Of a stretch of DNA of 64,000 nt, positions 1,671 through 64,000 are shown one piece after another. Under the pieces are notes generated by a model, which did not search any database, was not told where the DNA came from, and saw only the letters and a program-made list of their open reading frames with translations. The first letter of the stretch is position 1. Each line of letters starts with the position of its first letter. This DNA is from Pegea sp. RAD2-039 (Eukaryota > Chordata > Thaliacea > Salpida > Salpidae), in contig JAQGEQ010000189.1 of NCBI GenBank assembly GCA_034620365.1, forward strand, positions 62,001 to 126,000. Reading direction: 5' to 3'. The position numbers and the translations under genes are program-made.

Positions 1671-3710
1671 GTTGAATCTTATTCAACTCTAAAAATTAAA
1701 CTTTAGAGAAGTAATGAAGATACTTTTACGCTGATTTATTTCAGTATATAAATTTCGATTAGTTTAGTGTTTGTGGTGTAAATTTGCTAATAAATTATTT
1801 CGTCAAAATATTTTCTCAATTGACTCCTGTTAGCTACTTTTGACTTTAAAATTTTATTTAAGTTATCTAAATATATTTTTTTTTAGCGAATTTATGATTT
1901 AATATAATTGAAGAGATGGGAAGATATCAGAATGATGCAACTTTGAGACAAGTGGTTAGAGAGATTGAAGATCAAGATAACAAGAAGATAAATTATATTT
2001 GAATCTTTAAATCAAGAGATATTTATAGTATTAAGAATGGCACTATCAAAATCTAGCAACATATTTACGTATGCGATAAGATTTTACTAGATTTAGCCTC
2101 CTGCTTTACCACTTGTTCGTCAACCAAACAAACAACTAGTGTAGCAACACCCAACAAAATGTTTTTTTTAAAGTTGCTTTTTAAAATAAATAATAATTCA
2201 AAACATTTCAACATTTACTTAGTAAGCAACTTTCAATTCATAAATAATTAAAAAATGGAATTAATGAAAAACTACGCAACGTAAACTTTCTCATAACTAT
2301 AAGGTAAGTTTTTCAAATAATTCTTTGACAATACCTTAAATTTTATTAATATTAGTCAATATAAAGTGATTACATCCTTTCAATTTCAAAGTTAAAAGCT
2401 TTTAAAAGAAGATATTGTAAGGTACGATTGGAAAAACTTATAGAAGAAATTTGAAATATAATTTTGTAATAATTTTCAAAAAAATTTTATTTAGTATGAA
2501 ACATAATTTCAAAATTACTAATAATTATTGAAATTTAAGTCATTTCAAAATAAACTTTTGAAATTTTAAGTAAAAAAAATAAATCAATTTTTAATGATAC
2601 TTTATTTAAAAAAACATTTTATAAATTCAACTTACAAAAACTGTAAATAATAAATATAAATTATAATATCTAAAAATTTTAAATCAAAAATTTATTAAAA
2701 TAGAAAAGATATTTATACTATAGAATTGAAAAGAACTAAAAAAAGTAAAATATCAAGAAGAACATAAAAGTTAAAAAAAATTTGACTTTAAATAAAAATA
2801 TATTCTGTTTGTTTGCATAAAAAAGATTTCATTTGAAACTATTATATAATAACTGTTCTTTTAAAGAATTGTTAAAAAAACATTTAGAATTGAGAAAATA
2901 ATTATTTCGGCCAATTTTGGTCTTTCTCTAGAACTGCGCAGAATCTTTTTAAAGCTTCCAAATAAAAAACAGAAATTTTCAAAAAGAATTATACAAATCG
3001 TTCCAGGATTTTAGATCTTTTTTTAACAGTCATACTTCCATCTAATCTTACATGTCCGTATATGACAACAAAATGTTGATTGAAATTCATCATCATCAAG
3101 TTCTCTACCTTCTCATACGGCACAATTTTTCACATAAATCGAGCGTTTGCGTGTAATTTAATACAATCACGTATTTATCATCATTTATTGAACGAGTTGC
3201 TGCCATCAATAAATCCACTAACATCATTTTACCAGATAAATCGGGCTGAAAAAAATTGTTAAAACAAAGTTCCCTGACCGGGAATATCAAAAGTGTATTT
3301 CACCGCATACGTAAATGTGCTGCTAAATTATTTTAGTGCCTTTCTTATAAATATAAATCTCTTGATTTAAAATTTCAAATATAATTTTATCATCGTGTTA
3401 TTTTGATCTTCAAACTCTCTAACCACTTGTCTCAAAGTTGCATCATTCTGATATTTTCCCATCTCTTCAATTATATTAAATCATAAATTTATAATAAAAA
3501 TATTTTGAGATAATTTAAATAAAAACGTTTAAGTAAACAGTAGCTAGCAAAAATGAATTCAGAAAATTTTCTGTGACGAAATAATTTATTAGCAAATTTA
3601 CACCACAAACACTAAACTAATAGAAATTTATATAAAGGAACAAATCAGCGTAAAATTGTATTTCATCTATAATATAAGTAGCTTATTTTTAGAGTTGAAC
3701 AAGTTTCAAC
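1671..3710. mobile_element. E1: convergent-cassette element carrying RAD54 piece
   Basis: Bounded by facing TATA cassettes, plus at 1,671-1,802 and minus at 3,577-3,710. Just inside each lies a K module (plus 1,887-2,075; minus 3,370-3,475). The K module has a pyrimidine-rich acceptor ending TTTTAG, then an ATG opening a frame of about 31 codons (MGKYQNDATLRQ at its start); a second frame continues as IIFESLNQEIF. The interior holds a 17-bp RAD54 stub at 2,098-2,114 (minus sense), the M module at 2,150-2,312 ending in a good donor context, AT-rich filler, and a RAD54 exon piece on the minus strand. The inverted arms resemble long terminal inverted repeats of a non-autonomous element. No transposase is visible and I did not find a clear target-site duplication. 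Confidence 0.55.
2996..3285 (-). pseudogene. RAD54 helicase exon fragment plus tRNA-Glu stub
   Basis: Minus-strand exon from an acceptor CAG at 3,246-3,248 to about 2,996. It encodes the RAD54 segment with [29 protein letters not shown] and YVRLDGSM. A 47-bp insert after the CRMRR codons breaks the frame, and the exon stops matching RAD54 after the first codons of the VERF motif. At 3,269-3,285 lies the last part of a tRNA-Glu (GGTC...GGGAA reading on minus), joined to K-module sequence. Family identity is strong; the fragment cannot make a functional ATPase. Confidence 0.9.
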
Positions 3711-3779
3711 AGACTATTTCAATATTTATTCAAATTTTTCATCTTTACTTCGATAGCACAGATTATTTGCTGATTCACA

Positions 3780-4404
3780 ATGTAGTAGTTTTCAATTTGT
3801 ACCTTTACACAGAACTTTAAAACTTTTAACTGTTTCTAGTAATTGATTGAAATGTTTTAAACATTTTTTTAATTAATATTTTGTTGATAATAATCTAGTC
3901 AGAGTTTGGTTCATAATGTCGACTCCAAATACAAAAGCTCAGTAATAACAATTCAAAAATATTATCAATATTATTGTTAATATTGATAAATCCATTACAA
4001 TCTTCATTAAACTAAAATGTTTAAAGTTTAACAAGAATCAGTCAAAGAAAACCAAAATTTTGAACTTAAAACCATTAAATCTGCTTGAAAAGGTTTTGAA
4101 TAAAGTTATAAAAAAAATTGGAATATTTTTAGTATTAAGAAACAGAATAAAATAAGCAATAAAATTATAAATTGATGAAATAGATTGTCTTAATAATATA
4201 AAGTTATCTACTTCGTATAAAATATATGTAATTATTAAACCTATAAATCTTTGTAAAAGTCACTTAAAAATATCTTAAATTGAATAAAATCAGAGACTTC
4301 AAGAAAATAATTTCTACTTTTCCATTTAATTTCCTAGAAAGAAAAAGTTTCAATTAAAAATAAAGATATTTGGAATAAATAACAAATTTGAGATGATCTC
4401 TCGT
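3780..4404. other. P-exon relic and leader of tRNA-pair block
   Basis: Positions 3,790-3,930 match the 3' part of the P exon on the minus strand. The rest, to the tRNA pair, is AT-rich sequence repeated at 34,400-35,006 and 54,740-55,340. No open frame or RNA gene seen. Confidence 0.5.
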
Positions 4405-4478
4405 GGCCAGTTAGCTCAGTTGGTTAGAGCGTCGTGCTAATAACGCGAGTGTCGCGGATTCGATCACCGTACTGGCCA
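4405..4478 (+). tRNA. tRNA-Ile(AAU), slightly degenerate
   Basis: A 74-nt cloverleaf with fully paired acceptor stem GGCCAGT/ACTGGCC, D arm TTAGCTCAGTTGGTTAGAG and anticodon AAT in the loop CTAATAA. The T-arm has A opposite A at the pair closing the loop (GCGGA...ACCGT), so this copy may be weak or inactive. It lies 9 bp before tRNA-Asp, with no T-run between them. Confidence 0.85.
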
Positions 4479-4487
4479 TGTTCTGTG

Positions 4488-4559
4488 TCCTCGTTAGTAT
4501 AGTGGTGAGTATCCCCGCCTGTCACGCGGGAGACCGGGGTTTGATTCCCAGACGGGGAG
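4488..4559 (+). tRNA. tRNA-Asp(GUC), T-arm mutated
   Basis: 72 nt, acceptor TCCTCGT pairing with ACGGGGA, anticodon GTC in CTGTCAC. The T-loop reads TTTGATT instead of TTCGATT, and the T-stem 3' strand is CCCAG rather than CCCCG, so box B is damaged. A T4 run at 4,564-4,567 would terminate Pol III. The same mutations occur at 55,424-55,495. Confidence 0.85.
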
Positions 4560-6836: not shown

Positions 6837-8568
6837 GTTGAAACTTGTTCAACTCCAAAAATTGAAAACATATATGAACATATAAAGTATTTCTTAAACG
6901 CTGATTTTTCACTTTATATAAATTTCGATTAGTTTAGTGTTTGTGGTGTAGATTTGCTAAAAAATTATTTCGTAAAATATTTTTGAATTTACTCCTGTTA
7001 GCTACTTTTGACTTTAAAATTTTATTTAAATTATCTAAATATATTTTTTCAGCAAATTTATGATTTAATATAATTGAAGAGATGGGAAAATATCAGAATG
7101 ATGCAACTTTGAGACAAGTGGTTAGAGAGTTTGAAGATCAAAATAACAAGAAGATAAAATTATATTTGAATCTTTAAACCAAGAGATATTTATAGTATTA
7201 AGAACGGCACTATAAAAATCTAGCAACATATTTACTTATGCGGTAAAATTCTACTAGATTTAGCCTCCTACTTTACTACTTGTTCGTCAAACAAACAAAC
7301 AACTAGTGTAGCAACACCTAACAAAATGGCTTTTTCAAAAGTTACTTATTAAAATAAATAATAATTCAAAAAATTTCAACATTTACTTAGTAAGCAGCTT
7401 TCAATTCATACATAATTTAAAAATGGAATTAATGAAAAATTACGCAACAAAACCTTTCTCATAACTATACGGTAAGTTTTTTATATAATTCTTTGACAAT
7501 ACCTTAAATATTTTTAATATTAGTCAATATAAAGTGATAACATCTTTTCGATTTCAATGTTAAAAGCTTTTAAAAGAAGATATTGTAAGGAACAATTGGA
7601 AAAACTTATAGAAGAAATTTTAAATAGAATTTCTTAATAACTTTCAAAGAAATTTTATTTAGTTTGAAACATAATTTCAAAATTACTAATAATTATTGAA
7701 ATTGAAGTCATTTCAACATAAACTTTTGACATTTTAAGAAAAAAAAAATTTCAATGACACTTTGTTTAAAAAACTTTTTATAAATTCAACTTACAAAATC
7801 TGTAAATAATAAATATAAATTATAATATCTAAATACTTCAAATCAAAAAACCTATTTAAAGAAAAAAGATATTTAAACTATAGAATTGAAAAGAACTGAA
7901 AAAATGAAATATCAAGAAGAACATAAAAGTTAAAAAAAATTTGAACTTAAATAAAATTATATCCTGTTTGTCTGCATAAAAAAAGATTTTATTTGAAACA
8001 ATTATATACAAACTGTTCTTTAAAAGAATTGTTAAAAAAAAACATTTAGAATTGAGAAAATAAATATTTCGGCCAATTTTGGTCTTTCTCTAGAACTGCG
8101 AAGAATCTTTTTAAAGCCAAAAAAGTTCCCAAACCGAGAATATCAAAAGTGTATTTCACCGCATAGGTAAATATGTTGCTAAATTATTTTAGTGCTCTTC
8201 TTATAAATATAAATCTCTTGATTTAAAGATTCAAATAAAACTTTGTCATCTTGTTATCTTGATCTTCAAACTCTCTAACCGCTTGTCTCAAAATTGCATC
8301 ATTCTGATATTTTCCCATCTCTTCAATTATATTAAATCATAAATTTATTATAAAAACATTTTTAGATAATTTAGATAAAAACTTTTAAGTAAATAGTAGC
8401 TATCAGAAATCAATTCAGATAATTTTTTTTGACAAAATAATTTTTTAGCAAATTTACACCACAAACACTAAACTTTTAAAACTTATATACACCAACAAAT
8501 CATCGTAAAATTTTTCAAGAAAATCATTATGAAAAATTTTTAATTTTTGGAGTTGAATAAGTTTCAAC
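6837..8568. mobile_element. E2: convergent-cassette element, RAD54 exon lost
   Basis: Plus cassette 6,837-6,972 and minus cassette 8,433-8,568 face each other, each with a K module inside (plus about 7,050-7,235; minus 8,210-8,330). The interior has the 17-bp RAD54 stub (7,267-7,283), the M module (7,325-7,475) and filler. Where E1 has the RAD54 exon, E2 keeps only the tRNA-Glu stub at 8,125-8,141, so the exon was deleted after the element formed. The right cassette has a changed TATA region (TATATAAG) and no TAGT before GTTTAGTG. Confidence 0.55.
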
Positions 8569-11025: not shown

Positions 11026-11159
11026 CAAAATAATTTTCTAGCAAATTTACACCACAAACACTAAACTAGTAAAATTTATATATATCAACAAATCATCGTC
11101 AAATTGTTCTACACTTGTATTATACAGTTCATAATTTTTGGAGTTGAACAAGTTTCAAC
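11026..11159 (-). promoter_or_regulatory. TATA cassette, minus
   Basis: Palindrome GTTGAAACTTGTTCAAC, its own variable insert, ACGATGATTT, TATATATAAATTT, then the constant block. AATAAA is lost here because TAG replaces TAA in the AATAAATTATT segment. Confidence 0.6.
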
Positions 11160-13057: not shown

Positions 13058-13863
13058 GTTGAAACTTATTCCTATAATCTTATTTCTAAAATTAAATGTT
13101 TGAAATAATAGTATGGTACTTTAAAGCAGATATTTTCTATTTTATAAATTTCGATTAGTTTAGTATTTGTCGTGTAAATTTGCTAATAAATTATTTCGTA
13201 AAAAAAAAATTTTCTGAATTGATTGCTGTTAGCTACTTTTGACTTAAAAGTTTTTATTTAAATTATCTAAAAATATTTTTTTAGTAAATAGATGATTTAA
13301 TATAATTGAAAAGATGGGAATATATCAAAATGATGCGTCTTTGAGACAAGTGGTTAGAGAGTTTGAAGATCAAAATAACAAGATGATAAAATTATTTTTG
13401 AATCGTTAAATCAAGAGATATTTTTAGTATTAAGAAGTGCATTATAATAATTTAGCAACACATTTACGTATGCGGTAAGATACACATTTGATGTGCAGTT
13501 CAAATAACACAGCTTTTCATCTATTCTTAGATTGAAAATGTTCAATCTAAAAGACAAGATTGATGTTAATAGGTTAAATTTGCTTTTAAATCTTCATCTT
13601 TATTATTTAATATGATGTCATGACTTCGACTTGACAACTTTTGATCATATTATAATGGTCATATAAAGTTATAAATATTTACTAAGTATTTAACTAACTT
13701 ACATACTCTCAAACGGAAATTTTTTTTCTGATAATTTAATTCATTAGCAAATATACACCACAAACACTAAACTACTAGATATATATATAACGGAAAAACT
13801 CAGCGTTTGAATATCCACAAAAACAAATAATTTGTTAATTTTTGGAGTTGAACAAGTTTCAAC
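13058..13863. mobile_element. E4: short convergent-cassette element
   Basis: Plus cassette 13,058-13,198, whose second palindrome arm is broken (TTCCTAT), then a K module at 13,313-13,480, 250 bp of AT-rich sequence, and a minus cassette at 13,731-13,863. No RAD54 or tRNA sequence inside. Confidence 0.5.
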
Positions 13864-16940: not shown

Positions 16941-18847
16941 GTTGAATCTTATTCAACTCTAAAATTCAAATCTTATAGAAGTCAATGATTACATCGAATA
17001 ATTTTACGCGGATTTGTTTCATTATATACATTTGTATTAGTTTAGTGTTTGTGGTATTAATTTGCTACAAAATTATTTCGTCAAAAAAAATTTTCTGAAT
17101 TGATTTCTGCTAGCTACTTTTTACTTAAACGTTTTCATCTAAATTATCTAAAAATATTTTTATATTAAATTTATGATTTAATATAATTGAAAAGATGGGA
17201 AAATATCAGAATGATGCAACTTTGAGACAAGTGGTTAGAGAGTTTGAAGATCAAAGTAACAAGATGATAAAATTATATTTGAATCTTTAAATCAAGAGAT
17301 TTATATTTATAAGAAGAGCACTAAAATAATTTAGCAACACATTCACGTATGCGGTAAAATAAACTTTTGATATTCCCGGTCTGGAAACTTTTTTTTTACA
17401 CATTTTTGTTTCAGTCGGATTTATCTGGTAAAATGATGTTAGTGAATTTATTGATGGCAGGAACTTGTTCAATAAATGATGATAAATACGTGATTGTATC
17501 AAATTACACGCAAACGCTCGATTTCTGTGAAAAATTGTGCCGTATGAGGAGGTAGAGAACTTGATGATGATGAATTTCAATCAACATTTTGTTGTCAGAT
17601 ACGGATATGTAAGATTAGATGGAAGTATGACTATCAAAAAAAGATCTAACATCGTAGAACGAATTGTTTAATTCTTGTTGAAAATTTCTCTTTTTTATTT
17701 GGAAGCTTTAAAAAATTATGCGCAGTTCTAGAGAAAGACCAAAATTGGCCGAAATATTTATTTTCTCAATTCTAAATGTTTTTTCAACAATTCTTTTAAA
17801 GAACAGTTTTTATATAATAGTTTCAAATGAAATCTTTTTTTATGCAGACATACAGGATATATTTTTATTTAAAGTCCAATTTATTTTTGACTTTGATGTT
17901 CTTCTTGATATTTTACTATTTTAGTTCTTTTCAATTCTATAGTTTAAATACATTTTTTATTTTGATAGGTTTTTGATTTGAATTAATTAGATATTATAAT
18001 TCATATTTATTATTTACATATCCCTTAAGTTGAATTTAAAAAATGTTTTTTTAAATAAAGTACTATTAAAAATTTATTTATTTTGTTTGTTTGAAATGTC
18101 AAAAGTTTATGTTGAAATGACTTAAATTTCAATAATTATTTGTAATTTTGAAGTTATGTTTAATACTAAATAAAATTTCTTTGAAAATTATTACAAAATT
18201 CTATTTAAAATTTCTTCTATAAGTTTTTCCAATCGTTCCTTACAATATCTTTTTTTAAAAGCTTTTAACTTTGAAATTGAAAGGGTGTAATCACCTTATA
18301 TTGACTAATATTAAAAAAGTAACAATAAAAGTAAAGTAACTTTTTAAAAAGGCCATTATGTTGGGTATTGCTACGCTAGTTGTTTGTTTGGTTGACAAAC
18401 AAGTAGTAAAGCAGGAAGCTAAATCTAGTAAAATTTTACCGCATACGTAAATGTGTTGCTAGATTTGTTTAGTGCCTTTATTAAGATTATAAACATCTCT
18501 CAATTTAAAGATTCAAATATAATATATAATATAATATAAATTTTATATTCAAGCTCACTATTCATTTGTCTCAAAGTTACACATTCTGATATTTTCCTAT
18601 CTCTTCTATTTTATTAAGTAAGAAAATTGATTAAAAAATCTTATTTAGATTATTTAAATAAAAACTTTAAAGTCATAAGTAGCTAACAGGAGTCAATTCA
18701 GAAAATATTTTTATGACGAAATAATTTATTAGCAATTCTACACCACAAACACTAAACTAATGGAATTTTGTATAAAGAAACAAATCAGCGTAAAAGCGTC
18801 TTCATCATTGCATAAGTTGTTATTTTTAGAGTTGAATACGATTCAAC
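16941..18847. mobile_element. E5: convergent-cassette element carrying RAD54 piece
   Basis: Plus cassette 16,941-17,080 (TATA changed to TATATACAT) faces a minus cassette 18,717-18,847. K modules lie at 17,190-17,350 (plus) and 18,500-18,605 (minus). Same content as E1 but inverted: tRNA-Glu stub, RAD54 exon, filler, then the RAD54 stub AGTAGTAAAGCAGGA at 18,402-18,416. Only the start of the M module (about 18,340-18,360) remains. Confidence 0.55.
17372..17664 (+). pseudogene. RAD54 helicase exon fragment plus tRNA-Glu stub
   Basis: tRNA-Glu 3' stub at 17,372-17,387 (ATTCCCGGTCTGGAAA), a long T-run, acceptor TCAG at 17,411-17,414, then the exon 17,415-17,664. It reads LVNLLMAGTCSINDD, NYTQTLDFCEKLC and, after the shared 47-bp insert, [14 protein letters not shown]. 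The match ends at GAACGAAT. Missense changes (G for A, C for R, F for L) show drift. Confidence 0.9.
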
Positions 18848-19015: not shown

Positions 19016-19138
19016 ATTAGCAATTTTACACTACAAGCACTAAACTACTAGAAATTTATATAAAGTAAAACGTCAGCGACTTAAGCGATTAATAAATATA
19101 TAAATTTTCTTAATTTTTGGAGTTGAACAAGTTTCAAC
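19016..19138 (-). promoter_or_regulatory. TATA cassette, minus
   Basis: One of the two shortest copies (123 bp). The palindrome is perfect. Before TATA the motif is CGCTGACGTTTTAC, and the constant block has GCTTGTAGTG in place of GTTTGTGGTG. Shares its variable insert with 24,650-24,782. Confidence 0.6.
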
Positions 19139-20066: not shown

Positions 20067-20475
20067 GTTGAAACTTGTTCAACTCCAAAAATTAAAATAT
20101 ATATCGCCAAAAAAAATTTCAAAATCGAATTGTACGCTGATTTGTTGTTTTATATAAATTTCTTGTAGTTTAGTGTTTGTGGTGTGAATTTGCTAATAAA
20201 TTGTCGTCAAAAAATTTTTCTGTAATGACTTCTTTTAGCTACTTTTTACATAAAAGTTTTTATTTGAATTATCTAAATATATTTTTTTTGCAAATTTATG
20301 ATTTAATATAATTGAAGAGATGGGAAAATATCAGAATGATGCAACTTTGAGACAAGTGGTTAGAGAGTTTGAAGATCAAAATAACAAGAAGATACAATTA
20401 AATTTGAATCCTTAAATCAAGAGATGTTTATGGTATTAATAAACGCATTATAATAATTTAGCAAATCATTTACGT
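20067..20475 (+). promoter_or_regulatory. TATA cassette with K module, plus
   Basis: Cassette 20,067-20,206; the constant block ends TTGTCGTC rather than TTATTTCG. K module about 20,295-20,475 with the ATG frame intact to its 31-codon stop. Pairs with 25,710-26,115. It is followed by the tRNA-Glu/RAD54 unit rather than a facing cassette. Confidence 0.55.
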
Positions 20476-22316: not shown

Positions 22317-22819
22317 GTTGAAACTTGTTCAACTCCAAAATCTAGCAAACATATTTGCACATATAAAGGATTTCTTAAACATTTTTACGCTGATTTTTCA
22401 CTTTATATAAATTTCGATAAGTTTAGTGTTTGTGGTGTACATTTGCTAATAAATTATTTCGTAAAAAATATTCTGAGTTCACTCCTGTTAGCTACTTTTT
22501 ACATAAAAGTTTTTATCTAAATTATCTAAATACCATTTTTTTAGAAACTATTTGATATAATATAAATGGATAAGAGATGCGAAAATAGGAAGATGATGCA
22601 ACTTTGAGACAAGCAGTTAGAGAGTTTGAAGATCAAAATAACAAGAAGATAAAATTATATTTGAAACTTTAAATCAAGAGATTTATTTTTATAAGAATGG
22701 CACTAAAATAATTTAGCTACACATTTACGTATGCGGTAAAATAAGCTTCTGATATGTAGTTCAAACAACACAGCTTTTTATCTATTTTTAAATAAGAAAT
22801 ATTCAATTGAAGAAAAACA

Positions 22820-23167: not shown

Positions 23168-24649
23168 TGTTTAATTCTTGTTGAAAATTTCTCTTTTTTA
23201 TTTGGAAGCTTTAAAAAATTATGCGCAGTTCTAGAGAAAGACCAAAATTGGCCGAAATATTTATTTTCTCAATTCTAAATGTTTTTTTAACAATTCTTTT
23301 AAAGAACAGTTTTTATATAATAGTTTCAAATGAAATCTTTTTTTATGCAGACATACAGGATATATTTTTATTTAAGTTCAAATTTTTTTTTAACTTTGAT
23401 GTTCTTCTTGATATTTTTTTTTTAGTTCTTTTCAATTCTATAGTTTAAATACCTTTTTTATTTTGATAGGTTTATTGATTTGAAATAATTAGATATTATA
23501 ATTCATATTTATTATTTACATATCCCGTTAGTTAAATTTAAAAAATGTTTTTTTAAATAAAGTACTATTAAAAATTTATTTATTTTGTTTATTTGAAATG
23601 TCAAAAGTTTATGTTGAAATGACTTAAATTTCAATAATTATTTGTAATTTTGAAATTATGTTTAATACTAAATAAAATTTATTTAAAAGTTATTACAAAA
23701 TTATAATTTAAATTTCTTCTATAAGTTTTTCCACTCGTTTCTTACAATATCTTTTTTTAAAAGCTTTTAACTTTGAAATTGAAAGGGTGTAATCACCTTA
23801 TATTGACTAATATTAAAAAAAATTAAGGCATTGTCAAAGAATTATTTGAAAAACTTACCGTATAGTTATGATAACGTTTGCGTTGCGTAATTTTTCATTA
23901 ATTCCATTTTTAAGTTATGTATGAATTGAAAGTTGCTTACTAAGTAAATGCTGAAATGTTTTGAATTATTATTTATTTTAATAAGAAACTTTTAAAAAAG
24001 CCATTATGTTGGGTATTGCTACGCTAGTTGTTTGTTTGGTTGACGAACAAGTAGTAAAGCAGGAAGCTAAATCTAGTAAATTTTACCGCATACGAAAATG
24101 TGTTGCTAGATTTTTTTAGTGGCTTTATTAAGATTTAAACATCTCTCGATTTAGAGATTCAAATATAATATATAATATAATATAAATCTTATCTTCAAAC
24201 TCTCTATTCACTTGTCTCAAAGTTGCACATTCTGATATTTTCCTATCTCTTCTATTTTATTAAGTAAGAAATTTGCTTAAAAAATCTTATTTAGATTATT
24301 TAAATAAAAACTTTAAAGTCAAAAGTAGCTAACAGGAGTCAATTCAGAAAATATTTTGACGAAATAATTTATTAGCAATTCTACACCACAAACACTAAAC
24401 TAATAGAATTTTTTATAAAGAAACAAATCAGCGTAAAAGCGTCTCCATCACTTGGATAAGTTGTTATTTTTAGAGTTGAATACATTTCAACAGACTATTT
24501 CAATTATTAAATCAAAAGTATCTTTTTCTGTTTAAAATAAAACATTTATTAGTTTTTAATTTGTGTCTTTTGATATTTAGATGACTTAAATAGAAACTTT
24601 AAAGAAAAACGTATCTAGTTGAAGGAAATTCAGAAAATTTTCCTTTGAC

Positions 24650-24782
24650 CAACTAATTTATTAGCAATTTTACACTACAAGCACTAAACTACTAGAAATT
24701 TATATAAAGTAAAACGTCAGCGACTTAAGCGATTAATAAATATATAAATTTTCTTAATTTTTGGAGTTGAACAAGTTTCAAC
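24650..24782 (-). promoter_or_regulatory. TATA cassette, minus
   Basis: Tandem-duplicate partner of 19,016-19,138 with the same insert and the same GCTTGTAGTG variant. Confidence 0.6.
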
Positions 24783-25709: not shown

Positions 25710-26115
25710 GTTGAAACTTGTTCAACTCCAAAAATTAAAATATATATTGCCAATAAAAATTTCAAAATCGATTGTACGCTGATTTGTTTCTTTATATAAA
25801 TTTCTTGTAGTTTAGTGTTTGTGGTGTGAATTTGCTAATAAATTGTCGTCAAAAAATTTTTCTGTAATGACTTCTTTTAGCTACTTTTTACATAAAAGTT
25901 TTTATTTAAATTATTTAAATACATTTCTTTGCAAATATATGATTTAATATAATTGAAAAGATGGAAAGATATCGGAATGATGCAACTTTGAGACAAGCGG
26001 TTACAGAGTTTGAAGATCAAAATAACAAGAAGATACAATTAAATTTGAATCTTTAAATCAAGCGATGTTTATAGTATTAATAAACCCACTATAATAATTT
26101 AGCAACACATTTACG
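25710..26115 (+). promoter_or_regulatory. TATA cassette with K module, plus
   Basis: Cassette 25,710-25,848, K module about 25,935-26,115. In the K frame the codon after the M is changed (ATGGAAAGATATCGG), giving MERYRND instead of MGKYQND. Confidence 0.55.
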
Positions 26116-27692: not shown

Positions 27693-28304
27693 GTTGAAAC
27701 TTGTTCAACTCCAAAATCTAGCAAACATATTTGCACATATGAAGGACTTCTTGAACATTTTTACGCTGATTTTTCAGTTTATATAAATTTAGATTAGTTT
27801 AGTGTTTGTGGTGTAAATTTGCTAATAAATTATTTCGTTATAAAATATTTCTTAATTGACTCCTTTTAGCTACTTTTTACATAAAAGTTTTTATCTAAAT
27901 TATCTAAATACCATTTTTTTAGAAAATATTTGATACAATATAAATGGATAAGAGATGGGAAAATAGGAAAATGATGCAACTTTGAGACAAGCGGTTAGAG
28001 AGTTTGAAGATCTAAATAACATGAAGATAAAATTATATTTGAATCTTTAAATCAAAAGATGTTTATAGTATTAAGAAGGACACTATAATAATTTAACAAC
28101 ACATTTACGTATGCGGCAAAATACACTTCTGATATGCAGTTCGAACAACACAAATTATTTTTATTTATTTTTTTGATGAAAATCTTTTAGCAAATCTACA
28201 CCACAAACACTAAACTAGTAGAAATTTTTATAGACTAAAAAATCTGCGTAAAGGTATTATTGCAGATTTTTTCATTTAATTTTTGAGAATGAAAAAGTTT
28301 CAAC
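27693..28304. mobile_element. E7: compact inverted cassette pair
   Basis: Plus cassette 27,693-27,837, one K module 27,930-28,110, then a minus cassette 28,175-28,304 whose palindrome is damaged (GAATGAAAAAGTTTCAAC). The minus cassette's constant block joins GATGAAAATC instead of the usual CGAAATAATT. The same join is seen at 33,840, 54,170 and 60,476. Confidence 0.55.
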
Positions 28305-30369: not shown

Positions 30370-30824
30370 AATGTATCTTACCGCATACGTAAATGTGATA
30401 CTAAATTATTATAATGTACTTCTTAAAACTATAAAAATCTCTTGATTTAACGATTCAAATATAATTTTATCATCTTATTATTTTGATCTTCAAACTCTCT
30501 AACCGCTTGTCTCAAAGTCGCTTCATTCTGATATTTTCCCATCTCTTCAATTAAGTAAAATCATATATATTCTGAAAAAATTATATTTAGATGACTTAAA
30601 TATAAACTTTTATGTAAAAACTAGTAAAAAGTAGCTAAGTAAAAAGTAGCTAACAGGAGTCAATTCAGAAAATTATTTTATGACGGAATAATTTATTAGC
30701 AAATCTACACCACAAACACTAAACTACTAGAGATTTATATAAAGTGAAAAATCAGCGTAAAATGTAGAAATGCTATAGAAAACCATTAAATACTTTTAAA
30801 TTTTAGAGTTGAACAAGTTTCAAC
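30370..30824 (-). promoter_or_regulatory. TATA cassette with K module, minus
   Basis: Cassette 30,684-30,824, K module 30,430-30,560. Between them the sequence repeats AAAGTAGCTAAGTAAAAAGTAGCTAAC, a small local duplication. Variable insert not shared with any other copy in the window. Confidence 0.6.
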
Positions 30825-31589: not shown

Positions 31590-32026
31590 TGAACTGCATA
31601 TCAGAAGTGTATTTTACCGCATACGTAAATGTGTTGCTAAATTTTTATAGTGCCTTTCTTAATATTATAAATCCCTTGATTTAAACATTCAAATATAATT
31701 TTATCATCTTGTTAATTTGATCTTCAACCTCTCTAACCACTTATCTCAAAGACGCATCATTTTGATATTTTCCCATCTTTTCATTTATATTAAATCATCT
31801 ATTTACTAAAAGAATATTTTTAGATAATTTTAATAAAAACTTTTAAGTAAAAAGTAGCTAACAGCAATCAATTCAGAAAATTATTTTTTGACGAAATAAT
31901 TTATTAGCAAATTTACACCACAAACACTAAACTAATCGAAATTTATATAATGAAAAAAATCTGAGTAATACTACAATTTAAGCAAATTTCTATATAGCTA
32001 ATTTTTGAAGTTGAACAAGTTTCAAC
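31590..32026 (-). promoter_or_regulatory. TATA cassette with K module, minus
   Basis: Cassette 31,892-32,026 with its own insert, CTCAGATTT in place of CGCTGATTT and an ATTATATAAATTT box. K module 31,670-31,800; the M codon context is AAGATGGG and the reading DASLR replaces DATLR. Confidence 0.6.
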
Positions 32027-32869: not shown

Positions 32870-33710
32870 AAATGGATAAAACCAAAATTATCGTTTATCA
32901 TGAAAACTGGTTATTTCTATTTCTTCTTTTATCTAAAGTTTAATTTAATTTGGTTTTAAGTTTTAGACTAAAGTATTTATTATAATATAGAATTGATTAT
33001 TTAAGATTTAAATACCAGTTAATGATGTAGTTATTTAATAAAATTTTGTAGGATTTATAAGATGATTAGATTGAAACTGGTTTGACTGCTTTAAGACAAA
33101 GAGTAAACCATTTTAATTTATTTTTAAGAACTTACTAAACTGTCAGATTTATACACAAGAAAATAAAATAGTTTATTTATTTAAATAATTTGAAATAAGT
33201 TTTACAGATTTATAATTTTTGATTTAACTTTGAATTTTATTTAAACTATTAAAACAAACTTTCATTTATACAAAAGTTTTAACATAAGAGAAAACATAAT
33301 TTAAAAAGCTTAAAATTATCTTTTTAGGAAACCGATTGCGGAGAAACCAACAACAATTTTGTGAATCTAGTTTTGGTAAATATTAATTTGATCTTAAACT
33401 TAATTTCGTTTGTTTTTATGAAATATCTAAATTTTTATTCTATAGAATACAATTTACTTTTTTTCACTTGAAACATTTTATGAAATTTTTAAAGATCTTA
33501 CTGTTTTATTTAACTTTAATTTTGTTGTTAAATCAATCAAACTATTTTTAATTTTCATTAAAAATTTTAAAATTTAAAGAAAATATTATTTTATTGTAAA
33601 ATGCTGTGTAAAAACGTACATATTAAAAACTACCAAATGTTGATTCAGGGAATATTCATTTCTTAAAAATAAAAAGAGATAATTTAGGTTCAATCTTGAA
33701 TTTGTTTGTT
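32870..33710 (+). pseudogene. Q exon relics and cassette leader
   Basis: Q exon 2 from 33,052 (GATTTATAA, immediate stop), Q exon 3 at about 33,330-33,378 (ETDCGETNNN, acceptor TTTTTAG, donor GTAAATATT), then the cassette leader. No complete gene. Confidence 0.45.
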
Positions 33711-33717
33711 GAAACTT

Positions 33718-34314
33718 GTTCAATCTCAAAAATTAAATGAAAATATCTTCAATAATACCTTTACGCAGATTTTTTTTTAGTTTATAAAAATTTCTACTAG
33801 TTTAGTGTTTGTGGTGTAGATTTGCTAATAGATTTTCATCAAAAAAATAAATAAAAATAAATTGTGTTGTTCGAACTGCATATCAGAATTGTATTTTACT
33901 GCATACATAAATGTGTTGCTAAATTATTATAGTGTCCTTCTTAATACTATAAACATCTCTTGATTTAAAGATTCAAATATAATTTTATCTTCATGTTATT
34001 TTGATCTTCAAGCTCTCTAACCGCTTGTCTCAAAGTTGCTTCATCTTGCTATTTTCCAATCTTTTATCCATTTATATTATATCAAATATTTTCTAAAAAA
34101 ATGGTATTTAGATAATTTAAATAAAAACTTTTATGTAAAAAGTAGCTAACAGGAGTAAATTCAGAAAATATATTTATAACGAAATGATTTATTAGCAAAT
34201 TTATACCGCAAACACTAAACTAATAGAAATTTATATAAAGGAACAAATCAGCGTAAATTTGTATTTCATGTGAGTTGCTATTACTATAATTTTTAGAGTT
34301 GAACAAGTTTCAAC
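33718..34314. mobile_element. E8: compact inverted cassette pair
   Basis: Plus cassette 33,718-33,840 (constant block ends GATTTTCATC), K module on the minus strand 33,950-34,070, minus cassette 34,180-34,314. Same layout as E11 at 54,042-54,645. Confidence 0.55.
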
Positions 34315-35727: not shown

Positions 35728-35862
35728 CAAAATAATTTATTAGCAAATTTACACCACAAACACTAAACTACTAGATATATATATAAAGGAAAAATCAGCA
35801 TTTGAAAATCAGGCTTATTATGTCATAAATTCGTCAATTTTTAAAGTTGAACAAGTTTCAAC
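35728..35862 (-). promoter_or_regulatory. TATA cassette, minus
   Basis: Palindrome intact, followed by TTTAAAAATTG; TATATATATCT replaces the usual TATA. No K module on its downstream side because the LRR fragment abuts it. Confidence 0.6.
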
Positions 35863-44442: not shown

Positions 44443-44574
44443 GTTGAAACTTGTTCAACTCTAATAGTTAAATGTTTCAAATAATAGTAGGGTACTTTTA
44501 AGCAGATTTGTTCCATTATATAAATTTTTATTTGTTTAGTGTTTGTGGTGTAAATTTGCTAATAAATTATTTCG
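44443..44574 (+). promoter_or_regulatory. TATA cassette, plus, no K module
   Basis: Standard cassette; the insert resembles that of 13,058 (TTTCAAATAATAG). The sequence after CTGTTAGCTACTTTT leaves the repeat at about 44,630 instead of entering a K module. Confidence 0.6.
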
Positions 44575-45847: not shown

Positions 45848-47166
45848 GTTGAAACTTGTTCAACTACAAAAATTAACAACAATATTTTAAATGAACAATT
45901 TTAGGGCTGATTTTTTCCTTTATATAACTTTCTATTAGTTTAGTGTTTGTGGTGTAAATTTGCTAATAAATTATTCATCATATAAAATTTTATATGTTGA
46001 CTCCTGTTAGTTACTTTTTACTAAAAATTTTTTATCTAAATTATCAAAATAAGAATTTTCTAGCAAATTTATGATAAGTGTAAATGGATAAGAGATGGGA
46101 AATTATTTGGTTTAATATAATTGAAGAGATGGGAAAATAGCAAGATGAAACAACTTTGAGACAAGCAGTTAGAGAGTTTGAAGATAAAATAACAAGATGA
46201 TAAGATTAAATTTGAATCTTTAAACCAAGAGATATTTATAGTACTAATAAAGGCGCTAAATAAACTTCGCAACAAATTTACGTATGCGGTGAAATTTTAC
46301 TAGATTTAGCCTCCTGCTTTACTACTTGTTCGTCAACCAAACAAACAACTAGTGTAGCAACACCCAACAAAATGGCCTTTTTTTAAAGTTTCTAATTAAA
46401 ATAAATAATAATTCAAAACATTTCAACAGTTACTTAGTAAGCAGCTTTCAATTCATTCATAATTTAAAAATGGAATTAATGAAAAATTACGCAACGCAAA
46501 CTTTCTCATAACTATACGGTAAGTTTTTCAAATAATTCTTTGACAATACCTTAAATTTTATTAGTATTAGTCAATATAAAGTGATTACAATTCAAACCTG
46601 TTTCAATCCAATAATCTTCTAAATCATGCAAAATTGTATTGAATATTTACATCAATAACTGGTATTTAGATCTTAAATAACTATAATTATACAAATATTA
46701 TTATACTAAAAATAGATAAGAAGCTGTGGTGTTTGAACTGCATATCAGAAGTGTATTTTACCGCATACGTAAATGTGTTGCTAAATTATTTTAGTTCCTT
46801 TCTTAATATTATAAATCTCTTGATTTAAACATTCAAATATAATTTTATTTTCTTGTTATTTTGATCTTCAAATTCTTTAACCACTTGTCTCAAAGTTGCA
46901 TTATTCCGATATTTTCCTATCTCTTCAATTATGTTAAATCATAAATTTATTATAAAAATATTTTTAGAAAATTTAAATAAAAACGTTTAAGTAAAAAGTA
47001 GCTAGCAGAAATCAATTCAGAAAATTTTTTTTGACGAAATAATTTATTAGCAAATTTACACCACAAACACTAAACTAATAAAAATTTATATAATGAAACA
47101 AATCAGCGTGAAAGCATCTTCATCACTTAAATAAGAATTAATTTTTAGAGTTGAATAAGGTTCAAC
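45848..47166. mobile_element. E9: convergent-cassette element without RAD54 exon
   Basis: Plus cassette 45,848-45,977 (ends TTATTCATCA), K module 46,060-46,285 with a 30-bp internal duplication (GAGATGGGAAA twice), RAD54 stub 46,309-46,326, M module 46,365-46,520, a Q exon scrap near 46,590-46,625, K minus 46,755-46,925, minus cassette 47,035-47,166. Confidence 0.5.
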
Positions 47167-50618: not shown

Positions 50619-52147
50619 GTTGAAACTTGTTCAACTCCAAAAATTGAAGAATCTACGACATAATAAGTCTGAATTTCCCATGCTGATCTTTTCTTTATAT
50701 AAATTTCTATTAGTTTAGTGTTTGTGTTGTAAATTTGTTAATAAATTATTTTGTCAAAAAGAATTTTCTGAATTGACATTTGATACAATTGAATGGATAA
50801 ACTTATATTTGAATCTTTAAATAATGAGATGTTTATATTACTAAGAAAGGCACTATAATAACTTAGCAACAAATTTACGTATGCGGTAAAATTTTACTAG
50901 ATTTAGCTTCCTGCTTTACTACTTGTTCGTCAACCAAACAAACAACTAGCGTAGCAATACCCAACATAATGGACTTTTTAAAAAGTTACTTTACTTTTAT
51001 TGTTAATTTTTTAATATTAGTCAATATAAGGTGATTACACCCTTTCAATTTCAAAGTTAAAAGCTTTTAAAAAAAGATATTGTAAGGAACGCTTGGAAAA
51101 ACTTATAGAAGAAAATTTAAATAGAATTTTGTAATATTATTCAAAGAAATTTTATTTCGTATTAAACATAATTTCAAAATTACAAATAATTATTGAAATT
51201 TAAGTCATTTCAAAATAAACTTTTGAAATTTTAAGTAAAAAAAATAAATAAATTTTTAATGGTAATTCATTTATAAAAACATTTCATAAATTCAACTTAC
51301 AAAAACTGTAAATAATTAATATAAATTATAATATCTAATATTTCAAATCAAAAACCTATTAAAATGAAAAAGATATTTAAATTGTAGAATTGAAAAGAAC
51401 TGAAAAAGTAAAATATCAGGAAGAACATAAAAGTTAAAAAATATTTGACTTTAAATAAAAATATATCCTGTTTGTCTGCATAAAAAAAGATTTAATTTGA
51501 AATTATTATATTAAAACTGTTCTTTAAAAGAACTGTTAAAAAAACATTTAGAATTGAGAAAATAAATTATTTGGTCAATTTTGGTCTTTCTCTAGAACTG
51601 CGCATAATCTTTTTAAAGCTTCCAAATAAAAAACAGAAATTTTCAAAGTCATCTTTCACATCATTTTACCAGATAAATCGGGCTGAAAAAAATTGTTAAA
51701 ACAAAGTTCCCAGACCGGGAATATCAAAAGTGTATTTTACCGCATACGTAAATGTGCTGCTAAATTATTTTAGTGCCTTTCTTATAAATATAAATCTCTT
51801 GATTTAAAATTTCAAATATAATTTTATCATCTTGTTATTTTGATCTTCAAACTGTCTAACCTCTAGTCTCAAAGTTGCATCATTCTGATATTTTCCCATC
51901 TCTTCAATTATATTAAATCATAAATTTATTGTAAAAATATTTTTAGATAATTTAGATAAAAACGTTTAAGTAAAAAGTAGCTAGCAGAAATCAATTCAGA
52001 AAATTTTTTTTGACGAAATAATTTTTTAGCAAATTTACACCACAAACACTAAACTAGTAAAACTTACATAAAGAAACAAATCATCGTAAAATTGTTTATG
52101 AGCCACATTGTGAACTATTAAATTTTTGGAGTTGAACAAGTTTCAAC
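50619..52147. mobile_element. E10: convergent-cassette element, mostly deleted interior
   Basis: Plus cassette 50,619-50,753 (GTTTGTGTTG variant), partial K 50,795-50,885, RAD54 motif-V stub 50,908-50,925, M module nearly all lost, filler, a 25-bp RAD54 exon scrap at 51,658-51,682 plus tRNA-Glu stub at 51,706-51,722, K minus 51,790-51,905, minus cassette 52,014-52,147. Confidence 0.5.
51658..51722 (-). pseudogene. RAD54 exon start and tRNA-Glu stub
   Basis: Only PDLSGKM of the exon remains, followed on the upstream side by a tRNA stub ATTCCCGGTCTGGGAA that is cleaner than in E1. The deletion endpoint lies within the exon. Confidence 0.8.
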
Positions 52148-54041: not shown

Positions 54042-54645
54042 GTTGAAACTTGTTCAATCTCAAAAATTAAATGAAAAAATCTTCAATAATACCTTTACGC
54101 AGATTTTTTAGTCTATTAAAATTTCTACTAGTTCAGTGTTTGTGGTGTAGATTTGCTAATAGATTTTCATCAAAAAAATAAATAAAAATAAATTGTGTTG
54201 TTCGAACTGCATATCAGAACTGTATTTTACCGCATATGTAAATGTGTTGCTAAATTATTATAGTGTCCTTCTTAATACTGTAAACATCTCTTGATTTAAA
54301 GATTCAAATATAATTTTATCTTCATGTTATTTAGATCTTCAAGCTCTTTAACCGCTTGTCTCAAAGTTGCTTCATCTTGCTATTTTCCAATCTTTTATCC
54401 ATTTATATTATATCAAATATTTTCTGAAAAAATAGTATTTAGATAATTTAAATAAAAACTTTTATGTAAAAAGTAGCTAACAGGAGTCAATTCAGAAAAT
54501 ATTTTTATAACGAAATGATTTATCAGCAAATTTACACCGCAAACACTAAACTAATCGAAATTTATATAAAGGAACAAATCAGCGTAAAATTGTATTTCAT
54601 ATGAGTAGCTATTACTATAACTTTTAGAGTTGAACAAGTTTCAAC
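54042..54645. mobile_element. E11: compact inverted cassette pair
   Basis: Plus cassette 54,042-54,170, K module minus 54,285-54,405, minus cassette 54,511-54,645. Close copy of E8; GTTCAGTG replaces GTTTAGTG in the plus cassette. Confidence 0.55.
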
Positions 54646-57798: not shown

Positions 57799-58215
57799 GT
57801 TGAAACTTGTTCAACTCTAAAAATTAAAATGTATTTAATGACGTATTTCACAAACAATTTTACGCTGATTTTTTGTCTATATAAATTTCTAGTAGTTTAG
57901 TGTTTGTTGTAAAGATTTGCTAATAAATTATTTCGTTATAAAAATATTTTTGAATTGACTCCTGTTAGCTACATATTTTTACATAAAATGTTTGAATTAA
58001 ATTATCTAAATTTAATTTTTTTAGAAAATATTTGATATAATATAAATGGATAAGAGATGGGAAATTAGGAAAATGAAGCAACTTTGGGACAAGCGGTTAG
58101 AGAGTTTGAATATCAAAATAACAAGATGATAAAAGTATATTAGAAACTTTAAATCATGAGATGTTTATAATATTAATAAAGGCACTATAATAATTTAGCA
58201 ACACATTTACGTATG
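57799..58215 (+). promoter_or_regulatory. TATA cassette with K module, plus
   Basis: Cassette 57,799-57,935 (GTTTGTTGTAAAG variant), own insert; K module 58,030-58,215 with GAAGCAACTTTGGG changes. It precedes the tRNA-Glu/RAD54 unit as at 20,067. Confidence 0.55.
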
Positions 58216-58591: not shown

Positions 58592-58663
58592 TCCCAGGTG
58601 GTCTAGTGGTTAGGATTCGTGGCTCTCACCCACGCTGCCCGGGTTCGATTCCCGGTCTGGGAA
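58592..58663 (+). tRNA. tRNA-Glu(CUC), intact
   Basis: Same as 20,854 apart from T for G in the variable region (CGCTGCCC). All stems pair. Downstream T-runs are weaker (CATTTCTTTT). Confidence 0.93.
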
Positions 58664-58693
58664 CATTTCTTTTATAACAATTTTTTTTCTCAG

Positions 58694-59993: not shown

Positions 59994-60605
59994 GTTGAAA
60001 CTTATTCAACTCCAAAATCTAGCAAACATATTTGCACATATGAAGGACTTCTTGAACATTTTTACGCTGATTTTTCAGTTTATATAAATTTAGATTAGTT
60101 TAGTATTTGTGGTGTAAATTTGCTAATAAATTATTTCGTTATAAAATATTTCTTAATTGACTCCTTTTAGCTACTTTTTACATAAAAGTTTTTATCTAAA
60201 TTATCTAAATACCATTTTTTTAGAAAATATTTGATACAATATAAATGGATAAGAGATTGGAAAATAGGAAAATGATGCAACTTTGAGACAAGCGGTTAGA
60301 GAGTTTGAAGATCTAAATAACATGAAGATAAAATTATATTTGAATCTTTAAATCAAAAGATGTTTATAGTATTAAGAAGGACACTATAATAATTTAACAA
60401 CACATTTACGTATGCGGTAAAATACACTTCTGATATGCAGTTCGAACAACACAACTTATTTTTATTTATTTTTTTGATGAAAATCTATTAGCAAATCTAC
60501 ACCACAAACACTAAACTAGTAGAAATTTTTATAGAATAAAAAATCTGCGTAAAGGTATTATTGCAGATTTTTTCATTTAATATTTGAGATTGAACAAGTT
60601 TCAAC
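59994..60605. mobile_element. E12: compact inverted cassette pair
   Basis: Plus cassette 59,994-60,138, K module 60,230-60,410, minus cassette 60,476-60,605 with a partly broken palindrome. Close copy of E7. Confidence 0.55.
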
Positions 60606-61244: not shown

Positions 61245-61304
61245 ACGAGATAATTTATTAGCAAATTCACACCACAATCAAAACTATCTGTAAATGAAGA
61301 CTAA
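61245..61304. repeat. Cassette scrap fused to A exon tail
   Basis: Minus cassette sequence stops inside the constant block (ACACCACAAT) at about 61,276 and joins the last nine codons of the A exon (plus, ending TAA 61,302-61,304). A recombination joint between two modules. Confidence 0.6.
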
Positions 61305-63920
61305 TACATGATGTTAAATATAAATTAAAATATCAAATACTACACTATACAATAAAACTTGATACTAATACATGATGTTAAATATGAATTAAAGAAAATT
61401 AAAGCAATTAAAATTTCAACAATATTTTGATTTCTCTGAATTTCTTTTTATTAAATTAACAATATTGGCTTTTATACCTTGAAATAAGTCAAAGAATATT
61501 CAGAATATAATTTTTTGCTGAAAGAGAAGATAATTATAAACTTTCTGATTCGATTTTTTACTTTTGGATGCGTTAGAAAATGTAAATTAAAGTTTATTTT
61601 TTATGCGATTTACTTATTTTAATAATATTTTAATTTGGAAGTCTTACTTTCGTGAAAATTTATAAAATATAAATAATAAAAATTATAAACAGTTATTCAG
61701 TTTTTAACTACCTTACAAATACTCAAACATTATTTAATTTAATTGGCCTCAATAATATATAAAAAATCAACAATTATTTTCATTGAAAAATTGAAGTGTC
61801 TAAAAAGATATATCACCTAGTTTAAAATTGTTAGAAATTTCAGTAATCGACTTGACTGCTACTATTAAGTCTTCAAATAGAACATGGAACAACGAAAAAA
61901 GCTTATTAGTGAATAGTCAAATTTTATTTATGATTATAATATATATAAATTAAATTAAGGTATATATAAAATTATTATTTAGATATAAATTTAATTTACG
62001 TTTAAAAAAAGTGAAAATTATTTCAGTAATAAATTTAAGTATATTTTCAAACTAATGTATTATGAAATAAGGTGACAATATTGAGTTTTAATTTCATCAT
62101 TTTAATAATTTACTTTTTCAACAAAGTTATTATTTTCCTTATTATGATTTTGCAATTAGTTTTTATATCAGTTTTTAGCTCGTAGTTTTCTACCGCATAC
62201 AGATAAAAAACAACTTATTAAAGCAAAAATAATTGGGTAACTGACTTAATATAATCAATTGTAATTCACTTTTGGTAAGAAATTATAACATGAAAGCCAC
62301 TAATAGTTATAGAAAACAAGGTTTATAACTCATTCATCATGAAGCCATGTTTAGTATTCTCTGTATTTCTTGTTTGATAATTTTAAACAAAACATAAAAA
62401 TTACTTTTAAACGAAGTTAATAATCCAACAGATTTATTTCTCATTTTTTACAAAAAAAAATAATTTCAACTTTTAAATTTATTATTCAATCTGATTAAAA
62501 ATTTTGACGATTGAACCAACTACTGATAAGTTATCTTCTGTACACGGACTTCCAGTTTCTTAATTGGTAACTTGGCTAGTACTTTTTCCAAATTGTAATC
62601 AAGAACATAAATAGAAGATGAAATGGAATAGGTCGGAATTCTGTTTGTAATTAATACATATTTTCATCCACTAATCAAATAAGTTAGTATGGAAGCAAAC
62701 AAAAGATCAATTACAACTTATTTTACTTTGTACAGCAGTTGATATGTTATATTTTTTCAAGAAACTCAACAACCGTGGAAGGTTATAATGAAGATACAAA
62801 ACGACATCTAAACCTCTTGTTTTGTTTTACTGAGTCCACATGTTTTGGTTTTACAACAATAACCTTTCTTCTTCTGGCGTACTTTGCACTTTTACATACA
62901 TTCTAGAATTAATCATCAACATGTTAGTAGATTTAACGTAAAAGTTGTAGCTTACTAGTAGTTGTTGTTACACTCGACAAAAAACTTTCTTTACAACTAG
63001 CAGTCAGCCAAATGTCACCATCATTATACTCATTGAAATAAGTTTAATTATAATCTCTTTTTTATATTCTAAAATCATAAATAAATGAGAAAAAACGGAC
63101 AATATCTTTAATGTAGAAACAAACAAATATGCTTTTAGAGTATTCTTTAAGTTAAGTACCATCAAATATAGAAAAATTTGTATTTACAAACCAACTTTGC
63201 TGCTAGCAGCACGCAAGTAATTACTTACTTTAATAGAATGGTGGACGCATGTTTAGAAAAAGTAATTTTAGATGTTTAATAGCTAAGATCTTTCATAATT
63301 TTACCAAATTGTTGCTGTTTGTATTTACTTACTGGTGTTTATAGTTTTGAAAATCGAAAAGTTATTAATAAAAATATCAGCAACCGTTTTCAAACATACT
63401 TTCATTTTCTACTCATATAGGTGCTTCACCGTGCGTGACCAGTTTATGCTAATTTATTTATACTAAAAGTATTTCAAGAGAGCCTAGAGACTGATTATCA
63501 AATTTTGAGAACCAGCAACCTTAAAATTAGAGGTAAGCTCTTTAACTTACTGTTTATAAACACATTATTAGTTTTGTCTGTACTAATTATTATTATGAAA
63601 AATGTATTTCAATTTTTTAATTTAATATCTAAAAGTTAAATCACTTTACTTAAAATGTCGCCAACTAAAACCTCAGTTAGTAGTAGTAGAAGGAGCTGTT
63701 GTGTATTGAAACGATATTAAGAAGCAAACCCTGACTAGATTAACATCAACAAAACATTAAATGAAAAATTGTTTAACAATTTCACTATTTTGCTGGAAGC
63801 AGTTAAAAGTTTTAAAGTTCTGTGTAAAAGCACAAATAAAAAACTAACAAGTGTTGATTTGATGAAAAATCCTGTCTAACAAATAAAGTAGGATAATTTA
63901 AGTTTAATTTAAATTAGTCT
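61305..63920 (+). repeat. Block D, copy 4
   Basis: From about 61,360. Minus-strand reading GDIWLTASCKE at 62,988-63,019 continues SFLSSVTTTTSKLQ before a stop. P relic at 63,650-63,850. Close to copy 1 in many indels. Confidence 0.65.
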
Positions 63921-64000
63921 GTTAAATCTTTTTAAACTCTAATAATTAAACCTTAGAGAAGTGATGAGGATGGTTTTATGCTGATTTGTTTCATTATATA
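63921..64000 (+). promoter_or_regulatory. TATA cassette, plus, cut by window end
   Basis: Palindrome changed to GTTAAATCTTTTTAAAC, which keeps self-complementarity (GTTAAA/TTTAAAC). The insert is the same type as 1,671-1,802. Runs out at ATTATATA. Confidence 0.55.

Follow-up and report, generated by a model that had tools for sequence, protein, structure and literature searches.

Introduction

To our knowledge, the Sm-class RNAs of animals are few and conserved. Spliced-leader and SmY RNAs are RNAs with an Sm site that are often multicopy, SmY being specific to nematodes, and the HSUR RNAs of Herpesvirus saimiri are viral and few in number. Here, we describe a family of short cassettes in a 64,000-nucleotide stretch of DNA (hereafter the window) from the salp Pegea sp. 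RAD2-039 (GenBank assembly GCA_034620365.1, contig JAQGEQ010000189.1, positions 62,001 to 126,000), in which a hypervariable insert lies between constant ends. With a probability of roughly 0.57, these cassettes form a multigene family that encodes Sm-class RNAs similar to U7 and HSURs, whose 5' domains serve as guides and diversify, driven by small nuclear RNA (snRNA)-type promoters in the direction opposite to that first proposed. No such gene family was found among the matches listed in searches of the openly licensed literature.

Several described systems resemble the cassettes in part. U7 snRNA is an Sm-class RNA of ~60 nt with a target-pairing 5' region, an Sm site and a 3' stem-loop, and changing its 5' end changes the choice of target (PMC7026596). 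The cassettes are predicted to encode RNAs of the same layout, but their Sm-like site is nearer to the spliceosomal type, and where U7 has a single 5' end, the cassettes have dozens of different ones. Identity with U7 is not supported, as CTCTTT (the CUCUUU histone-pairing box) was found by eye in 0 of the 23 listed 5'-domain types. HSURs, which are Sm-class or adaptor RNAs, act by base-pairing to mRNAs (PMC6763288, PMC13158664), a mode of action likewise predicted here; the cassettes, however, form a chromosomal cluster beside ordinary animal genes, and a search of IMG/VR for the 19 bases GAGTTGAACAAGTTTCAAC gave no exact match. The 21U PIWI-interacting RNA (piRNA) genes of nematodes share with the cassettes an snRNA-derived promoter, a variable short RNA and clustering, and show how an snRNA promoter was taken over for a large and variable set of small RNAs (PMC6436959). 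The cassettes differ from them in having a full proximal sequence element (PSE), a TATA-like box, an Sm-like site and a hairpin. The genome also has TTAGGG arrays, whereas nematodes have TTAGGC. A further likeness is offered by the LU snRNA of Drosophila, a lineage-specific Sm-class snRNA with a PSE promoter that was found by Sm pull-down, in a genus for which 11 species of Sm-class RNAs are reported (PMC4053861). Spliced-leader genes are set apart by the splice donor, which is not conserved in the cassettes.

Census of the cassettes

The window is part of contig C102 (250,794 bp) in an AT-rich genome of 105.7 Mb with low GC and the standard genetic code; a ciliate code was considered and rejected, since the standard code leaves the reading frames of the best tubulin matches open. 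Gamma-tubulin and other genes look animal, and no COX1 was found. In base composition, Xenoturbella (43% GC) was set aside, and placozoans have 29-31% GC (PMC11521371, PMC6277202). Using a paired scan that requires the PSE and the hairpin at the correct distance, we found 33 cassette loci in the window, 32 of them credible, on both strands and at about one per 2 kb. All array sequence examined on C102 and a second contig, C247, holds 98 distinct copies, including those of the window. A preliminary description of this DNA had counted 34 copies (16 plus, 18 minus). The family is real, while the count is corrected to 33 loci (15 plus and 18 minus in the direction used at the time), one of which, at 16849-16957, is doubtful because the hairpin at 16941 serves it on the opposite strand. 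A putative copy described at ~63,921 runs into the end of the window. Of the 33 loci, 28 combine a PSE with no more than 2 mismatches, a hairpin with no more than 1, a T-run of at least 4 and an insert of 16-40 nt. The motifs reported as shared do recur in the window, with 27 exact sites of GTTGAA-N5-TTCAAC, 15 of ACGCTGATTT and 21 of AGTTTAGTGTTTGTGGTG (8 plus, 13 minus). AATAAA, which had served as a further landmark, is uninformative because the window is AT-rich and contains 252 and 245 such sites.

Promoter type and direction of transcription

The reverse complement of AGTTTAGTGTTTGTGGTG is CACCACAAACACTAAACT, a sequence that also stands upstream of the U6, U2 and (diverged) U1 genes of the same genome and is therefore the snRNA PSE. 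Read on this other strand, the most conserved block of the cassettes is CCACAAACACTAAACT; TATATAAA is nearly palindromic. Judged from sequence, the cassettes have snRNA-type promoters, from which transcription should run opposite to the direction first proposed. The short RNA gene suggested earlier thus persists as a prediction, but its direction and its start near AGTTTAG do not, AGTTTAGTGTTTGTGGTG being the PSE in reverse complement.

The arrangement of the promoter elements was compared with that of the genome's own snRNA genes. For U6, 11 of the 12 loci read have ACAAACACTAAACT upstream with at most 1 mismatch (the diverged copy L082 is without it), and PSE and TATA lie 15-17 bp apart in 9 of 9 loci with TATA scored; locus L072 shows TATTTAAA instead of TATA, and L083 was unscored. 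In both U2 and all three U1 promoters read, a 16-bp PSE with 0-2 mismatches is followed by TATA at a distance of 10-12 bp, and the first base of the RNA is at +41/42 from the PSE (5 of 5 read). Among the 98 cassettes, the PSE-TATA spacing is 10 bp in 52, 12 bp in 21, 9 bp in 11, 6 bp in 4 and 15 bp in 1, with none in 9, so that TATA stands 9-12 bp from the PSE in 84. The switch from constant to variable sequence comes at about +40 after the PSE, where the hypervariable insert begins. Since the spacing is like that of U1/U2 and unlike that of U6, the promoters of the cassettes are of the snRNA type in its RNA polymerase II (Pol II) arrangement. U1 and the cassettes are also alike between TATA and start (AAATCGCTGTGAAAAGC versus AAATCAGCGTAAAAGC).

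When the search was anchored on the hairpin, 85 of 180 entries had a PSE with at most 3 mismatches at the expected place; because each palindrome is counted on both strands, the 180 entries correspond to roughly 90 loci. Anchored on the PSE, 81 of 83 copies had a hairpin with at most 2 mismatches. In control windows shifted by 200 bp, the best PSE never had fewer than 5 mismatches and the best hairpin never fewer than 4, so the pairing is not due to chance.

Anatomy of the predicted RNA

In the direction set by the PSE, the predicted RNA consists of a variable 5' domain, an Sm-like site AAUUUUU(G/A)G and the hairpin GTTGAA-N5-TTCAAC, in this order. The insert is thus predicted to make up the 5'-terminal 20-35 nt of a short RNA, with the palindrome as its 3' hairpin; it would not be the free middle of a promoter, as had been supposed, nor the palindrome an upstream operator. 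Despite the turnover of its sequence, the 5' domain measures 20-35 nt in 98 of 98 copies, and a run of four T is present in 87. The 5' domains show no structure beyond that of shuffled sequences (24 types, median p 1.0), which would suit a region that pairs with other RNAs. This structure result comes from a copy set in which some copies are missing and which is weighted towards exact PSEs. The same bias applies to the boundary at about +40 and, below, to the insert typing, the comparison of flanks between insert types, the donor and target searches, the 28-bp scan, the resampling and the inspection of stem variants, but not to the census, the spacing and the 39-pair divergence.

We propose that SNAPc would bind the PSE CCACAAACACTAAACT and that Pol II would start ~40 bp past it, where the variable insert begins. 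The transcript would measure ~48-63 nt to the end of the hairpin, with 20-35 nt of mostly unstructured 5' domain ahead of the Sm-like site and the 3' hairpin. An Sm ring would assemble on AAUUUUUGGAG and its variants, the hairpin GUUGAA-N5-UUCAAC would stabilise the 3' end of the RNA, and the exposed 5' domain would recognize target RNAs by pairing, in the manner of U7 snRNA and the HSURs. Many specificities would be available from the array, its copies spreading by duplication and recombination, with purifying selection keeping the PSE and the 3' hairpin while the 5' domains diversify. The sequence itself shows the orientation, the identity of the promoter, the anatomy of the elements, the hypervariability and the conservation of PSE and hairpin; transcription, Sm binding, target pairing and selection for diversity are what we infer from the pattern found, in which a fixed scaffold is combined with a changing 5' end, as expected of a guide repertoire. 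The model predicts capped RNAs of about 48-63 nt that start at defined bases, for example at 3658, 24441 and 52094 on the plus strand of the window.

Divergence of the cassette elements

As the main test of divergence, distances were determined per element in 39 disjoint close pairs of copies. The 5' domain differs by 12.6%, compared to 4.2% in the outer flanks (3.0x; higher in 28 of the 39 pairs, lower in 10, p = 7e-5), the four outer flank parts showing 3.7, 2.7, 4.9 and 6.1%. The PSE (2.7%, 0.65x flanks, p = 0.04) and the hairpin (2.4%, 0.58x, p = 0.016) lie below the flanks, and the stretch from TATA to the start differs by 6.9%. In pairs at a flank distance of 20-30% (1,505 non-independent pairs), the PSE has diverged by 3.9% and the hairpin by 8.8%, while the 5' domain is near saturation at 44.8%. 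Equal divergence of insert and flanks, which the preliminary description had named as the outcome that would speak against its proposal, is thus not what the 98-copy set shows, and its view of constant promoter parts under selection with constrained spacing holds.

A scan in 28-bp windows (144 close, non-independent pairs) gave the same picture of a hypervariable insert, with a mean distance of 16.6% versus 2.8-9.9% in 26 of the 27 other windows; the 27th, which overlaps the insert, reached 11.6%. The 5' domain exceeded 24-bp flank windows in 5,000 of 5,000 resamplings (11.4% versus 6.7%); when it was compared with the more distant downstream flank in the same set, the excess did not reach significance (p = 0.10). 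Depending on the cut and the copy set, the inserts form 23-29 types over the copies counted; their number had been put at ~18 in the window. Copies of one insert type generally have both flanks in common, and four listed pairs combine near-identical flanks on both sides with unrelated inserts. Free exchange of the insert as a module, one of the earlier suggestions, finds no support as a general rule: as the same 5' domain goes with the same flanks, change in place or by short conversion is favoured over free exchange.

Alternative explanations

Other explanations would account for part of these data. The cassettes might be relaxed or dying duplicates, i.e. snRNA-type promoters copied along with the region, whose functionless 5' part is free to change. 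The region is indeed a duplication mosaic with RAD54 fragments and some degenerate cassettes; however, at flank distances of 20-30% the PSE (3.9%) and the hairpin (8.8%) stay far below their surroundings, and the 5' domain lies 3-fold above the flanks instead of equalling them, so we consider this explanation improbable. An unlikely explanation is also that each locus makes one small RNA, as in the 21U piRNA genes of nematodes, with the variable 20-35 nt as the functional RNA and the T-run and palindrome serving only for termination. The variable part has a fitting size, is unstructured and is clustered in AT-rich DNA almost without long open reading frames (only 2 of at least 150 aa in the window), close pairs reveal no particular conservation of the Sm-like site, and nematode piRNA promoters derive from a SNAPc motif (PMC6436959). 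Yet a mere terminator would not need a hairpin that is kept about as well as the PSE, and the loci are far fewer than the >15,000 of C. elegans (PMC7917550).

The PSE together with TATA and the T-runs of at least 4 (87 of 98 copies) would also suit type-3 genes of RNA polymerase III that end at the T-run and yield RNAs of 20-40 nt, but the spacing is mostly U1/U2-like, with the U6-like 15 bp in 1 of 98 copies, and we regard such genes as very unlikely. Least credible of all are spliced-leader RNA genes with many leader types: they would share the promoter type, the Sm-like site, the 3' hairpin and the multicopy cluster, but GT is absent from 9 of 23 5'-domain types and the best donor match falls below that of shuffled sequences (2.04 versus 2.63 of 6), and with no splice donor the RNAs would not be spliced leaders. 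A promoter of protein-coding genes was rejected, as stops interrupt the best conserved frame on the side of AATAAA, which lies upstream of the PSE relative to the predicted RNA, in nearly all listed copies; the conserved stretch on that side reads MGKYQNDATLRQVVRE..., with stops, and matched nothing in Pfam and a single PDB entry at chance level (E 2.4).

A family of Sm-class RNAs with diversifying guide domains must itself be weighed against several observations. The consensus of the Sm site is RAU4-6GR. In strict form it is present in only 50 of the 98 copies, with U4-6AG in another 28, and in the close pairs neither the Sm-like site (6.5%, ratio 1.56) nor TATA (6.4%, ratio 1.53) changes more slowly than the flanks. 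The hairpin stem has just 6 bp (-3 to -4 kcal/mol) and no compensatory change was seen among the variants inspected, so that an RNA hairpin is not separable from a palindromic protein site. By eye, the 3' flanks of four U1/U2 genes and the cassettes share no motif that could be a 3' box. Rfam returned no snRNA family, either in a 6-kb stretch at a relaxed threshold or in the window at gathering level, and the longest complementarity of the 5' domains to 29 kb of neighbouring sequence equals that of shuffles. The flank parts are unequal among themselves (2.7-6.1%), the fastest, d100, reaching half the divergence of the 5' domain, and the excess of the 5' domain could reflect local hypermutation, or gene conversion that lowers the divergence of the flanks.

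If that reading is correct, the combination of a held promoter and hairpin with a 5' domain that changes faster than the neighbouring DNA points to a recognition function pressed to diversify, as with piRNAs, although the scaffold would here be of the Sm type. We tentatively suggest, as a possibility rather than an expectation, that the genome maintains a repertoire of >100 Sm-class guide RNAs with diversifying 5' ends, transcribed from snRNA promoters. Such a repertoire would be an RNA-guided recognition system based on the Sm ring in place of Argonaute, under pressure to change its targets.

Distribution in the genome

The exact pattern ACGCTGATTT..TATATAAA has 57 matches genome-wide, 55 of them on two contigs, while the reversed pattern has 0. 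The cassette copies are located on C102 and on C247 (from ~157 to 294 kb). With a 481-bp copy as the query, all 59 matches listed fall on C102/C247 (40 of 230 candidates scored), as do all 150 matches listed for a conserved stretch of the unit (150 of 818 candidates scored). The family is spread over ~375 kb in which duplications form a mosaic. Homology between copies tends to end at a few positions (about -120 and -300 before the palindrome, +40 and +320 after AGTTTAG), and the cassette may have spread as a mobile unit (transposon); the placement of all listed matches on two contigs speaks for segmental duplication.

The 3' module T4-NN-AGTTGAA-N5-TTCAAC is found 255 times genome-wide (142 and 113), compared to 2 and 0 for the reversed pattern. 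Among the first 100 matches listed, 67 are on C102 and 33 on seven other contigs, namely C23 (7), C60 (4), C64 (2), C89, C92 (17), C93 and C96, with grouping on C23 and C92; judging by the motif, these could be further clusters. PSE plus TATA gave 232 matches (88+144, overlapping matches included) versus 1 in the reversed control. Of the 18 rows listed ahead of C102, 12 are U6 or U2 promoters and the other six, which are unassigned, lie on C1, C3 (two), C11, C23 and C26. The one exact PSE-TATA on C23 is ~195 kb from the 3' modules there, and none is on C60-C96 among the matches listed.

Individual loci in the window

In the following, coordinates span the PSE, the hairpin and all between them, and the strand is that of the predicted RNA. 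The snRNA-type gene at 1671..1776 (-) has its PSE at 1761-1776, the 5' domain at 1699-1720, the Sm-like site at 1688-1698 and the hairpin at 1671-1687; in the one at 3603..3710 (+), these are at 3603-3618, 3659-3682, 3683-3693 and 3694-3710, respectively. All elements are likewise present in the minus-strand genes at 6837..6946, 16941..17054, 20067..20182, 25710..25824, 33708..33814, 45848..45952, 50619..50727, 54042..54145 and 57799..57909. The same holds on the plus strand for those at 8459..8568, 11052..11159, 13758..13863, 18743..18847, 19031..19138 (PSE with 2 mismatches), 24386..24491, 24675..24782 (PSE with 2 mismatches), 30710..30824, 31918..32026, 34206..34314, 35754..35862, 47061..47166, 52040..52147 and 54537..54645; the flanks of the gene at 52040..52147 are near-identical to those of a copy in locus L019 that has an unrelated 5' domain. 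Long 5' domains mark the minus-strand genes at 22317..22435 (35 nt), 27693..27811 and 59994..60112 (35 nt), the second of which forms a divergent pair with the gene at 28201..28304 (+), whose hairpin has 2 mismatches. The T-run is shortened in the snRNA-type copy at 60502..60605 (+) and missing in the one at 44443..44548 (-), where the Sm-like site is degenerate. A degenerate copy at 13058..13172 (-) has 2 mismatches in the PSE and 3 in the hairpin, and its T-run is absent. Head-to-head gene pairs at 27693-28304, 33708-34314, 54042-54645 and 59994-60605 have a common upstream region and measure ~390 bp from PSE to PSE.

Genomic surroundings

Duplicated blocks, some direct and some inverted, make the window a mosaic, and the divergence in the best 45 of its 750 self-matches is 4-17%. 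A RAD54-like helicase gene (Helicase_C) has left fragments with readable exons at 2953-3239, 10550-10797, 17421-17665, 21015-21314, 22924-23168, 26368-26673, 42924-43583 and 58751-59050; close copies are on C102 and C247, with a fuller copy on C247 near 138-141 kb. A LITAF-like zinc-ribbon open reading frame (PF10601) is intact at 40644-41180, in a block 95-97% identical to C247:138-147 kb, and pieces of a leucine-rich-repeat gene at 5158-5532 are duplicated at 56093-56392 (LRR_4/LRR_8 match below cut-off).

On C247, the stretch at 138-152 kb contains, beside a LITAF-domain gene, what we take to be a RAD54-like gene, a retrotransposon relic and an STK36/fused-like kinase. The start of C102 (L069, C102:1-9000) is the same kinase region as L055/L056 (C247:138001-158000), with 98.7-99.0% identity over 2.1 and 5.4 kb, the C102 copy being split into two frames. 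In view of this ~99% identity, C102 and C247 may be two haplotypes that carry their arrays on different sides of the kinase gene; alternatively, C102 may stem from a recent duplication. The cluster of U6, U2 and U1 is found on C32 and again on C39, so that both haplotypes may be represented in some of the assembly.

Transfer RNA genes are duplicated along with the mosaic blocks: tRNA-Ile(AAT)-Asp(GTC) pairs are found at 4404-4559, 35006-35161 and 55340-55495, and tRNA-Glu(CTC), which adjoins RAD54 exons, at 20854-20926, 43617-43689 and 58592-58664.

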